Shown: piece after piece, positions 105 through 5,163 of the stretch | How positions within the stretch are numbered: position 1 is the stretch's first letter | Layout of the letters: every line of letters begins with the position of its first letter | From: Bacteroidales bacterium | GTDB taxonomy: Bacteria; Bacteroidota; Bacteroidia; Bacteroidales; GCA-2748055 | Assembly (NCBI GenBank): GCA_030589895.1 | Contig: JAUUZQ010000006.1 | Coordinates: 1 to 64,000 of the forward strand | Direction of reading: 5' to 3' | Length of the DNA: 64,000 nucleotides | The notes under the pieces: generated by a model | Seen by the model: the letters and a program-made list of their open reading frames with translations, nothing else | Databases searched by the model: none | What the model was told of the DNA's origin: nothing | Position numbers and translations under genes: made by a program

Positions 105-220
105 AGCCTCAGCTGAATCACCACCCAAAACAACCTCTGGTCTTCATTGATCGGAGGTTTTTTGCTTTAAAGGGGAAGAGGAAACCACGCCTGTAATGAT
201 TCCTAGAGCATATACTATTA
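105..220 (+). repeat. Left copy of a 116-bp inverted repeat: 16 nt of the tRNA-Lys 3' end, CCA, terminator hairpin and downstream sequence
   Basis: agcctcagctgaatcaccacccaaaacaacctctgg...agagcatatactatta is the reverse complement of 2565-2680; by-eye alignment gives 4 mismatches in 116 nt and no indels. Confidence 0.95.
132..163 (+). terminator. Rho-independent-like terminator (copy of the tRNA-Lys terminator)
   Basis: AACCTCTG-gtcttcattgat-CGGAGGTT-TTTT hairpin followed by a T run. Confidence 0.7.
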
Positions 221-337
221 ATACCGTTTGTAAGGTAAGTCTGTAATAATATGGTAGAATAAGTTGTGGATTTACCTACTAAATTTTCTATACATAAATA
301 ATCACTATATTTAATACCCACTTTTAATAACAACATT

Positions 338-811
338 ATGAAATACTTGTACATAATATGCTTAGCGATTATATTGACTTCTTGCTCATCCAACATAACC
401 ACTACTCAAGAATGGATTGAAACACAGTTAGAATCATATTGTATCGGTGGTGCCTTTGATGGCACGAGTGATTTTCATTTTCAAGGTACAAATATGATTA
501 TTGATAGTTATTATAGTAGCAGTGAAAGAACTTATAAGCACATAGATTCTATAAGGATTGCAGATATTAGAAATATAGTATTTCAGCCACAATGGTATGA
601 AGGTGAAATAACATTTGTCCGCATTTACTTTTTCCTTTGGGAAAATAATCGTTTTGACAGTTTTGAAGAAAAGGACTTTAATTATGATTTTGTTCAAAAT
701 ATTATTGTTCCTCGTGATGTTCTTGAAGGGGATATGCCTGAACGACTAGAAAAGTCGTTTAGACGTCTAGTGAAATTACATGGAGGGGAAATGTATAAAG
801 ATGTATTCTGA
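338..811 (+). CDS. Hypothetical lipoprotein (cargo between inverted repeats)
   Basis: ORF with lipobox-like N-terminus MKYLYIICLAIILTSCSS. Confidence 0.7.
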   Translation: MKYLYIICLAIILTSCSSNITTTQEWIETQLESYCIGGAFDGTSDFHFQGTNMIIDSYYSSSERTYKHIDSIRIADIRNIVFQPQWYEGEITFVRIYFFLWENNRFDSFEEKDFNYDFVQNIIVPRDVLEGDMPERLEKSFRRLVKLHGGEMYKDVF

Positions 812-943
812 TTAATTGAAAAACTTCAACCCCTTCAACTCTTTACAGACTTCAAGCTTCTGTAGTTCCACTCGTATAGATTATGAAAAGTACAATACTT
901 GTTAGAGTTTACTATCTTTAAGATACCAACAATAACTAAAACT

Positions 944-1228
944 ATGACTCCAAAAAAAGCAATGGTTAAGAACGTTCAGTCGTCGGTTAAGTCTGGAGAA
1001 GTAACTCCCCGTACTGAAACTCAAGATAAGGAGGAATATGATCTTGAAAAGTTAGCTAAGTTCCAGTTAAAAGTTGCCCAAAAACAAATAAGCATTGCTG
1101 AAGACCATTTGAAGGTGGCAAAGTCCACAAACACTTTACTCACCTGGATTGCTATACCGTTTATAATATCGGTAGTAGTTGCTTTAGGTATTATTGTACT
1201 AGGTGGAATAGGATTTGCAAGTTTATAG
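944..1228 (+). CDS. Hypothetical small protein, charged/coiled-coil-like N-terminus and C-terminal TM helix
   Basis: ORF 899..1228; first canonical ATG at 944 (MTPKKAMVKN); hydrophobic C-terminus; convergent with the integrase, stops 2 nt apart. Confidence 0.6.
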   Translation: MTPKKAMVKNVQSSVKSGEVTPRTETQDKEEYDLEKLAKFQLKVAQKQISIAEDHLKVAKSTNTLLTWIAIPFIISVVVALGIIVLGGIGFASL

Positions 1229-1229
1229 G

Positions 1230-2402
1230 CTAACTAAAGAAACTCAAGCTCTTCAACTCTATCCCAGCCTCCAATTCCCGTAGCTTAACATATCTCTCGA
1301 AGCTAGAGAGGCTCTTGTGACCTGTTACTTTCATAACTACGTAAGGAGATACGCCTTCTAATATTAGATTGGTTGCAAGACTCCTCCGTGCTGTATGTGT
1401 TGTTACAAGGTCATGTTTCTTTTCAGTCCTAATCTCCTTCTTACCGCCTCTGGTTATCCTTACTTCAATATCATCATTAATGTCGGCTCTCATGGCAGCA
1501 ACCTTTATGTAATCATTCATCTTCTGATTACTTGGTTTGGGTGGCAGGACGCCTTCATACTTATCTAATATCTGCTGCACATATGGATGCACTGGAATGA
1601 TGCTTACCTCACCTGTCTTAGTCGCACGTATACTCATTGTACCATCTTTAATGGTTGATTGCTTCACCCGGTTCCAATCTTCAAACCTCAACCCAGTAAA
1701 GGACCCAATAATAAAGTAGTCTCTAGCTTTCTCTAAATGGCCTGAGAGCTTCTTATTCATCATTCGACTTAACTCACCAACACTAAGATATATAGTGTCT
1801 GCCTGCTCCATACGCTGCTTAAAATGCTTAAATGTAGCATTGTTGTGGTATTCCTCAACGAATGCTTTTGACATGACCGCTTTGATCAGTTTCCACTGGT
1901 TAGCAACGGTATTCGCAGCTAACTTGAGTGATAGCAGATAGTTATTATATGAGTTATAGAATCGCATATCTACAGCTGAGAAGGGGAGAGGCTTATTATT
2001 TTGATATTTACAAAGGTGCTTATAACAAGTATTGTATGATTTCCAGTTAGAGCGCTCTTCCTGCTTTGCCTTTTCCTTAAAATCCTTGAAGTACTCTAAG
2101 AAATCTGAATACTCCTTTATAGAACTATTGTTAAGGAGTTTGCCTAGCTCATGTCGGACAACCTGTACAGAGTCTTCAGGGTATTTGATTAATGATTCTC
2201 CCAGAGTATTCTCATATCTCTTCATTTCATCAATAATATTACTTCCTAGGTAAGTAGCATTAACGTCCCTGGGTCTTGCTTTCTTCTTATTCCAGTCTGT
2301 AAGTTCTATCTTCAGTTTAGTAGAGACCTTAAGTGGAGTTGTAGGATTGATCCAATGATATAAATAGATGTATCCATTCGATTCACGTCTGAAAGTTGCC
2401 AT
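1230..2402 (-). CDS. Tyrosine recombinase / site-specific integrase
   Basis: N-terminal SAM-like domain; catalytic pattern R...(HTARRS)...(GHKS)...Y at the C-terminus. Confidence 0.93.
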   Translation of the reverse strand: MATFRRESNGYIYLYHWINPTTPLKVSTKLKIELTDWNKKKARPRDVNATYLGSNIIDEMKRYENTLGESLIKYPEDSVQVVRHELGKLLNNSSIKEYSDFLEYFKDFKEKAKQEERSNWKSYNTCYKHLCKYQNNKPLPFSAVDMRFYNSYNNYLLSLKLAANTVANQWKLIKAVMSKAFVEEYHNNATFKHFKQRMEQADTIYLSVGELSRMMNKKLSGHLEKARDYFIIGSFTGLRFEDWNRVKQSTIKDGTMSIRATKTGEVSIIPVHPYVQQILDKYEGVLPPKPSNQKMNDYIKVAAMRADINDDIEVRITRGGKKEIRTEKKHDLVTTHTARRSLATNLILEGVSPYVVMKVTGHKSLSSFERYVKLRELEAGIELKSLSFFS

Positions 2403-2426
2403 TGTTTTGTGGTATTGGTTTACGCA

Positions 2427-2511
2427 AACCTACCTACTAATTTTAGTCATGTCAACCTACTAATGTTGATAGCCTGTTAATAATTGGTAGGTTATTTGGT
2501 AGGTTAGTAGA
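2427..2511. promoter_or_regulatory. Cluster of putative integrase arm-type sites (AACCTACYAAT family, both orientations)
   Basis: AACCTACCTACTAAT and AACCTACTAAT, then inverted ATTGGTAGGTTATTTGGTAGGTTAGTAG; related AACCTACCAATAAACCTACTAAT at 23-45. Confidence 0.6.
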
Positions 2512-2564
2512 TAAATTCCGCCTTATCATACCACACTATTTTCGTTAAGCCTGTCCAACTGTTA

Positions 2565-2680
2565 TAATAGTATATGCTCTAAGAATCATTACAGGCGTGG
2601 TTTCCCCCTCCCCTTTAAAGCAAAAAACCTCTGATCAATGAAGACCAGAGGTTGTTTTGGGTGGTGATTCAGCTGAGGCT
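2565..2680 (-). repeat. Right copy of the 116-bp inverted repeat (overlaps the tRNA-Lys 3' end)
   Basis: Reverse complement of 105-220. Confidence 0.95.
2622..2653 (-). terminator. tRNA-Lys rho-independent terminator
   Basis: Minus strand AACCTCTG-gtcttcattgat-CAGAGGTT-TTTT. Confidence 0.8.
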
Positions 2681-3001: not shown

Positions 3002-3523
3002 ATGAAGAAAGTAACATTATTTCTAAGTGTAATATTGTTTTCTGTTATGGCTATGGCTCAGCAGACTACAATTGATAAAGTATTTAAAAAATACAGCGGA
3101 CAAGAAGGGGTAACGACAGTTAATATCAGCCCTGAGCTATTCCAGATTATTTCAGATATGGATGTCAGTGAGATTGCCGGAGCAGATGTTCCCATGGATA
3201 AACTGACAGCACTGAAGGTACTTGTCATTGAAAATCCTGAAATATTAAAGGGAAATGACTTCTTTGCCGAGGTGACAACAAATTTGAACACAAGCGATTA
3301 TGCAGAAGTTCTTACTGTTCAGGATGGTGATGAAGATGTGCGTATGTGGATGAAGACTGAAGGGAAGCAGATCCTGGAGTTTCTTCTTGTCGTCTCTTCG
3401 CCAGGTGAGGGTGTGCTGGTATATATTACCGGAGACTTCAACCTGAATGATATAGAGGGTCTTGCAGAATCATTTGGTGGATTTGATGGTATTGATGGCT
3501 TAGATAATCTTCAGATTAACTAA
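3002..3523 (+). CDS. DUF4252-like secreted protein
   Basis: Signal peptide MKKVTLFLSVILFSVMAMAQ; paralogous to 4651..5163 (VDKIFDKYAGKDGYTTV vs IDKVFKKYSGQEGVTTV). Confidence 0.75.
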   Translation: MKKVTLFLSVILFSVMAMAQQTTIDKVFKKYSGQEGVTTVNISPELFQIISDMDVSEIAGADVPMDKLTALKVLVIENPEILKGNDFFAEVTTNLNTSDYAEVLTVQDGDEDVRMWMKTEGKQILEFLLVVSSPGEGVLVYITGDFNLNDIEGLAESFGGFDGIDGLDNLQIN

Positions 3524-3554
3524 CTTGTAAGCTGAATCTATAAAAGCTTTTTGC

Positions 3555-4073
3555 ATGAGGTCCTCTGACTTTAAACTAATGGTATTGCCCTACAGTTCGC
3601 GCTTGTACCGATTGGCATTTAGCTTATTGAGAAGCAAGGAGGAGGCTGAGGATATCGTGCAGGAAGTTTACATGAAACTCTGGAAGATGCGGGATGACCT
3701 TCCAAAATACAACAGCATCGAAGGTCTGAGCGTTAAAATAACCAGGAATATGTGCCTGGATCTATTAAGAAGAAGAAAAACCACCCTTGAGATCATAAAG
3801 GAGGAGGGAAGAAGCAAGGAAAACGAATTTAGTGCTGATCCATCTAAAGATCTTGAGAAAAAAGAGCGATCAGAATTAATACATAGTTTAATAAACCAAC
3901 TGCCTGAACCACAGAAATCCCTGGTCTATTTCCGACATATTGAAGGAAAAGAATACAATGAAATATCTGAACTGATGGAGATGAATGAAAACGCAATCAG
4001 AGTGAGCATATCCAGGGCAAGAAAACAGCTACGTGAAATGTTACAAACACAATATTCCTCATGGATAAATTAA
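3555..4073 (+). CDS. RNA polymerase sigma-70 factor, ECF type
   Basis: LLRSKEEAEDIVQEVYMKLWK region 2 and C-terminal HTH EYNEISELMEMNENAIRVSISRARKQL. Confidence 0.93.
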   Translation: MRSSDFKLMVLPYSSRLYRLAFSLLRSKEEAEDIVQEVYMKLWKMRDDLPKYNSIEGLSVKITRNMCLDLLRRRKTTLEIIKEEGRSKENEFSADPSKDLEKKERSELIHSLINQLPEPQKSLVYFRHIEGKEYNEISELMEMNENAIRVSISRARKQLREMLQTQYSSWIN

Positions 4074-4627
4074 CCAGCATAAAAGAACTTCTCGATAAGT
4101 TCTACGAAGGGCAGACCAGCCTGGAGGAGGAGTTGCACCTGAAGGAGTACTTTCTCGGCGACAACATCCCTGAAGAGTTGCTTGAGGATAAAGAGCTTTT
4201 CGTATCGATAAGTGCAACCAGTGAACACATTGAGGTGCCTGATAATTTAAATAGCTCTCTTATTGAAGCAATTAGCTTTGCAGAACACAGAGAGTCGCGG
4301 GTGAAGAGAATCAATTTATATTCATTTTCCGGTTTGGCCGCCGGATTGGCCATCATCCTGGGAGTGTACTTTGCATTTTTACGTGACAATCCGACGGAAG
4401 TACTTGCAGAATATACAATTCAGGATGAAGAAGTGGCCTATCTGGAAGCCAAAAGGGCACTTACTTACGTCTCTGCGAAATTGAATAAAGGGACCGCCTC
4501 ACTGGAACCCCTTGGACAAGTGAACAGATCAATGAAAACCCTGGCACCTTTGAAGAAGATTTCAAGTGGCCGCAAGGAACTGCAGCTACTGGGGAACGTA
4601 GAGAAGGCCGCTAATATAAAATTGTAA
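4061..4627 (+). CDS. Putative membrane anti-sigma-like protein
   Basis: Overlaps the end of the sigma gene; single TM segment (LAAGLAIILGVYFAFL). Confidence 0.6.
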   Translation: MDKLTSIKELLDKFYEGQTSLEEELHLKEYFLGDNIPEELLEDKELFVSISATSEHIEVPDNLNSSLIEAISFAEHRESRVKRINLYSFSGLAAGLAIILGVYFAFLRDNPTEVLAEYTIQDEEVAYLEAKRALTYVSAKLNKGTASLEPLGQVNRSMKTLAPLKKISSGRKELQLLGNVEKAANIKL

Positions 4628-4650
4628 TAGGAAAACATAAAATATTTATC

Positions 4651-5163
4651 ATGAAAAAATTATTATTAAGTATCGTCCTTATCGCAGGAATCATGACCAT
4701 GAATGCACAGTCTCCTGTAGATAAAATTTTCGATAAGTATGCAGGAAAGGATGGATATACTACTGTTATAATAAACAGTTTTATGTTCAGATTGATCGCA
4801 AATCTGGATATAGATGATCCTGATTATAATGAGTTTAAAAAGGCCTCTGCAGGAATTGAATCTATAAAGATCTTAACCCAGGATGGTGGTAATTCAAAAA
4901 GCTTTGGCAAAGAGCTTATTGAAATTCTGCCCCGCAAAGAGTACAAAGAGTTAATGGTGGTGAAGGATGCAGAGGAGGAGGTGCTCTTTCTGGCAAGAGA
5001 AGAGGGAGGAATTATTACTGAGTTTCTGCTGATCGTTTCTGGAGATGATGGAGATGATGCACTGATCGTTTTCACCGGTAATATCGATCTGGAGAGTATC
5101 GCAAGTATTTCGAAAGGGATGGATCTTCCCGCGATGGATAATCTTGAGGATTTCGATGAGTAA
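4651..5163 (+). CDS. DUF4252-like secreted protein
   Basis: Signal peptide; paralog of 3002..3523. Confidence 0.75.
   Translation: MKKLLLSIVLIAGIMTMNAQSPVDKIFDKYAGKDGYTTVIINSFMFRLIANLDIDDPDYNEFKKASAGIESIKILTQDGGNSKSFGKELIEILPRKEYKELMVVKDAEEEVLFLAREEGGIITEFLLIVSGDDGDDALIVFTGNIDLESIASISKGMDLPAMDNLEDFDE

Follow-up and report, generated by a model that had tools for sequence, protein, structure and literature searches.

Inverted copies of a tRNA-Lys attachment site enclose a tyrosine integrase gene in a Bacteroidales genome

To our knowledge, descriptions of integrases residing in tRNA genes nearly always include att repeats in direct orientation, through which excision is possible. At the start of a contig from a Bacteroidales bacterium the second att-like copy is inverted, which raises the question of how such an arrangement arose and whether the enclosed segment could be turned round by its own integrase. 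The window, that is the whole 64,000-nucleotide stretch of DNA that was analysed, shares its first base with contig C33 (65,852 bases) of a MAG of 200 contigs that is 88.9% complete, and the far end of the element is therefore absent from view.

Two inverted attachment sites and the genes between them

The inverted repeat consists of positions 105-235 on the forward strand and 2550-2680 on the reverse strand, which are 92% complementary over 131 nt. The original prediction had described a 116-bp inverted block (105-220 and 2565-2680), carrying the tRNA 3' end and its terminator in both copies and enclosing a tyrosine integrase and two small open reading frames; all of this was confirmed, with the repeat being somewhat longer. 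The 116-nt tract within it is 97% alike, with 4 mismatches (at 153, 177, 179 and 203) and no indels, and the initial 48 nt of the copies are identical. A weaker similarity reaches to about 282 and 2504, respectively (gapped alignment, 161 nt, 84%, E = 4e-42), and the part beyond 235 scored 19 as compared to 9.7 +/- 1.7 for shuffled sequences, none of 500 shuffles being equal. A chance repeat is excluded by the 131-nt match together with this shuffle test. The identity falls sharply from 97% over the first 116 nt to about 60% further in, which would fit an old duplication that was later homogenised over the 116 nt. The contrast suggests that the copies have exchanged sequence, as recombination between them could do, the alternative cause being a shared constraint on the att region.

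ARAGORN identified a single tRNA in the whole window, an intact tRNA-Lys gene with anticodon TTT on the reverse strand (2662-2737), which is the integration target. The right copy contains a 19-nt core (2662-2680), a terminator (2626-2653) and a spacer, and the left copy likewise contains a core (105-123), a terminator (132-159) and a spacer. All 19 nt of the two cores are identical and the 11-pair terminator is kept in both copies. The left copy begins exactly at the last 19 nt of the tRNA, the only tRNA part that it has, so that the outer edge of the repeat coincides with the edge of the core, as expected from site-specific joining. Reversed integration by way of a palindromic overlap, for which the 8-bp palindrome TCAGCTGA in the core was a candidate, was rejected, since pairing in the reversed sense would flank the core with CACCA, or with AGCC, at either end; in all copies observed, the tRNA-like side and CAC(CA) stand at opposite ends of the core.

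Beside the tRNA gene lies a tyrosine integrase of 390 amino acids (1230-2402, reverse strand), whose SAM5 and Phage_integrase domains are accompanied by a weak, sub-threshold arm-binding domain. Its catalytic residues are intact and legible in the alignment (R239, K262, H336, R339, H362 and Y371), as in elements that target tRNA genes. The first of the two forward-strand reading frames, ORF1 (338-811, 157 amino acids), has a lipoprotein-like N-terminus (LTSC), and the second, ORF2 (944-1228, 94 amino acids), is convergent with the integrase and coiled-coil-like, with one transmembrane stretch recognised by eye. Neither gave a credible family match; no relatives of ORF1 were found among plasmids or of ORF2 among phages, and neither was present in the loci of relatives that were compared. 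Among 393 genomes of the order, no close integrase was found besides that of the window itself.

Reading from the tRNA, the order on the right is tRNA-Lys, core, terminator, spacer, five arm-type sites and integrase. The arm-type motif is AACCTACYNA; counted from the tRNA end, the sites are located at +156 and +168 (forward) and at +198, +221 and +225 (reverse), forming a P arm at 2427-2505 (2427, 2431 and 2454 on the forward strand, 2484 and 2496 on the reverse strand). A genome from another genus of the same family, G002, encodes a 60%-identical integrase behind tRNA-Lys, with arm-type sites at +145, +157, +187, +210 and +214. This is the same five-site spacing with a shift of exactly 11 bp; the sequence of the spacer is not conserved. 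By its architecture, with the tRNA 3' end rebuilt and the arm-type sites inside the element, the right copy is an ordinary attL. The exact arm-pair pattern occurred three times in 28 family genomes, namely at the left and right copies of the window and in G002, each time beside a tRNA-Lys core. The sole other arm-pair match in G002 was considered as the attR of its element and rejected, being a different sequence with no tRNA core nearby.

The left copy has arm-type sites on both sides of its core. Outside the core, a P'-like arm on the forward strand (1-104) contains two sites (23-32 and 35-44) with the 12-bp spacing of the P arm, and inside it a decayed continuation of the repeat (236-282) contains one degenerate site at +149 (273-282). 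The copy thus looks like an attP, consisting of a P' arm, a core and a partly decayed P arm, but the layout could equally be read as the junction of two elements in an array, with the owner of the P' arm continuing leftwards off the contig. An open frame closing at position 21 is maybe the tail of a gene lying off the contig. The sequence 1-104 has no second occurrence in its own genome, and a search for the left junction in viral contigs gave no match.

The tRNA-Lys locus in this genome and its relatives

In the family the tRNA-Lys gene is preceded by a DUF4252/ECF operon and followed by a variable stretch and then by PCMT, an S41 peptidase, PyrD and HTH, with CorC or another gene often preceding PCMT. 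The corresponding flank in the window (3002-5163, forward strand) contains an ECF sigma factor and an anti-sigma-like gene between two genes that we take to be of the DUF4252 type; sigma domains were detected, and the segment is syntenic beside tRNA-Lys in most of the relatives examined. The variable stretch behind tRNA-Lys is an integration hotspot. Direct partial tRNA-Lys ends are present in G003, G016 and G027, which shows accretion at this site. In another genome, G012, 16 nt of the tRNA-Lys end recur in inverted orientation (contig C54, locus L107, 5460-5475). This copy is separated from the tRNA by about 73 nt and falls where a histidine-kinase-like gene has its 3' end, the gene being an insertion between tRNA-Lys and CorC relative to G011.

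A third tRNA-Lys 3' fragment was found in the genome of the window itself, on contig C83 (L143, 6165-6189). It is 25 nt in size with 1 mismatch, has its own terminator and adjoins an element end that has its homologue in G016 (71% over 97 nt, E = 1e-9). The fragment points away from the PCMT-S41-PyrD-HTH flank, an orientation inverted relative to the family norm. That C83 and C33 belong to one locus is suggested by synteny, the two contigs being unjoined in the assembly. A join through a cut-off metallophosphoesterase gene was tried and gave no link, as homologues of that gene end unlike the frame closing at 21. A direct attR elsewhere in the genome, which would have marked a normal island end according to the original prediction, was not found in the 88.9%-complete assembly.

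Several other features of the locus were recorded. The direct tRNA-Lys end in G003 (L113, 4049-4760) lies about 0.6 kb behind the tRNA as a small direct-repeat insertion; its terminator resembles those of its own genus, whereas the terminator of the G003 tRNA-Lys itself differs. In G027, a tRNA-Lys end with its terminator is placed between two copies of a repeat of roughly 55 nt, followed by the chromosomal flank (C106, L169/L180, 1-180), and the contig with the tRNA-Lys gene (C131) ends within the matching terminator stretch. Contig ends fall at tRNA-Lys, shortly behind it or within the integrase in G002 (C109), G005 (C176), G009 (C195), G019 (C20) and G027 (C131) as well as at base 1 of the window, which is what a repeated site, or one that varies across the population, would be expected to produce. 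A 69%-identical integrase in G007 is cut short at residue 209 and lies next to a sequence resembling the end of an insertion sequence (C228, L007, 10504-11046). The CCA end of tRNA-Lys is encoded in some members of the family and unencoded in others, which have CACTT, CACTC or CACAA (L105, L108, L110, L111). In genus g3, PyrD and HTH are located upstream of tRNA-Lys and in the same direction (L110, G020 C227, 343-2262), opposite to g2 and g5, and this gene order would represent another orientation change at tRNA-Lys.

Origin of the inverted copy

On balance, we lean towards an explanation in which related elements accreted at a tRNA-Lys hotspot and part of the array was then inverted. The right copy would be the attL of an element whose integrase recombines in the 19-nt tRNA 3' end and has its arm-type binding sites about 145-235 bp inside. 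On the left, the P' end of an off-contig element would meet the decayed P end of another at the core; such a junction would be direct relative to tRNA-Lys in an ordinary tandem array, and here it would have been turned round by the inversion. We count the arm layout that is kept between genera despite an unconserved spacer in favour of accreted elements, as well as the confinement of the exact arm pair to three tRNA-Lys cores in 28 genomes and the outer edge of the repeat at the core edge. Several element ends are joined at copies of one core, both at the left P'-core-P junction and at the C83 fragment, as in accretion islands, but not all cores are direct, the left copy being inverted. Our favoured account needs one rearrangement on top of tandem accretion, a process established for sites of this type (PMC3146451, PMC5704250). 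It explains why a P' arm flanks the left core externally, as well as the decayed inner P arm and the inverted C83 fragment, and a single inverted block could underlie both odd copies, the left one and that on C83. We infer accretion and then inversion, in that order; no inversion breakpoint was found in the analysed sequences. The inverted core of G012, which represents a second genus, hints that inverted copies may arise repeatedly, and this counts against a single accidental inversion, which would leave such copies unexplained.

A more active role for the integrase is conceivable but rather unlikely, namely that the locus is a tRNA-anchored inverton in which the enzyme flips 124-2661 between the inverted attP-like and attL sites. 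Such flipping, at the same low level of credence, would bring the integrase and ORF1 alternately up to the tRNA, with tRNA-Lys and its terminator intact. Inverted sites do surround the segment with a recombinase nearby, the identity of the cores and of the adjacent nucleotides is complete, arm-type sites are present at both ends and the integrase looks intact. An inverted copy beside tRNA-Lys also exists in G012, and in vitro Int-pTN3 inverts DNA between inverted tRNA-Leu sites (PMC5495485). Against this, decay has left a single imperfect site in the left P arm, and a strict search for Bacteroidota-type promoters gave no match within the enclosed segment and no arrangement suggestive of a switch, the only strict match being that of the tRNA. 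The complete arrangement was absent from every relative examined, with the genus of the window represented by one genome. Recombination between inverted sites leads to inversion (PMC8371274), and the att layout supports the original prediction that recombination between the copies would turn round the DNA enclosed by them without damage to tRNA-Lys; the segment concerned is 124-2661. The inverted att copies were borne out and extended by the arm sites on the left, while the inversion itself is possible in principle only. Flipping of the segment may still be within reach of the integrase, or of RecA by way of the 116-nt tract. A rearranged or tandem island, offered as an alternative in the original prediction, fits better, given the inverted end on C83 and the direct remnants in three relatives.

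Two further readings were considered. A wrong join of the leftmost 280 bases at the contig end is improbable; it gains something from the start of the window at base 1 of a contig in a fragmented MAG, and from the breaks at or near tRNA-Lys in several relatives. Yet the copies are mismatched and diverge further in, 1-104 is unique in the assembly and bears the arm-type sites of the integrase itself, and ORF1, ORF2 and the integrase run on unbroken. An exact fold-back of one copy is excluded by the 4 mismatches in 116 nt, the later divergence and the private sequence at 1-104. Least probable is an independent origin of the left copy, as what remains of a second tRNA-Lys gene or of some unrelated element, of the kind seen on C83 and in G016, where tRNA-Lys 3' fragments adjoin other element ends. 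It has no tRNA sequence beyond the 19 nt, its outer flank carries arm sites of the window's integrase, which makes it more than a stray tRNA fragment, and its inner flank continues as the P arm of that integrase, so that this reading is already largely refuted.

Implications and comparison with known systems

A functional inverted pair, if real, would lock the element into the chromosome, and an enzyme of integration would become one of inversion. It would constitute a simple path from a mobile element to a switch and would help to explain rearrangements beside tRNA hotspots. If the locus is merely a scrambled accretion array, it calls for caution in the use of island-finding methods that assume direct repeats.

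The window shares the integrase beside attL, the core formed by the tRNA 3' end, the arm-type sites and the restored tRNA with the integrative elements and prophages that tyrosine integrases insert into tRNA 3' ends, but differs from them in that the second att site is inverted and attP-like and in that no direct attR was found in the 88.9%-complete assembly. Among tandem accretion islands are the ICESt1-related CIMEs. The repeated use of one RNA-gene 3' end, the element remnants and the several partial copies of the gene end are common to the window and such islands, of which the ssrA islands of Dehalococcoides are another example (PMC3146451; reviewed in PMC5704250); the copies in these islands are described as direct repeats, whereas the left copy of the window is inverted. 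FimB/fimS-type tyrosine-recombinase switches likewise have inverted sites near the recombinase, but in the window no promoter switch was seen and the sites are tRNA-derived with long arms. The Int-pTN3 integrase of Thermococcus, a tyrosine integrase that targets tRNA-Leu and has been linked to chromosomal inversions, has in common with the window the type of enzyme, the inverted tRNA-derived sites and tRNA genes that are intact after inversion; for Int-pTN3 inversion has been demonstrated, along with low-specificity recombination (PMC5495485), whereas for the window it is possible in principle.
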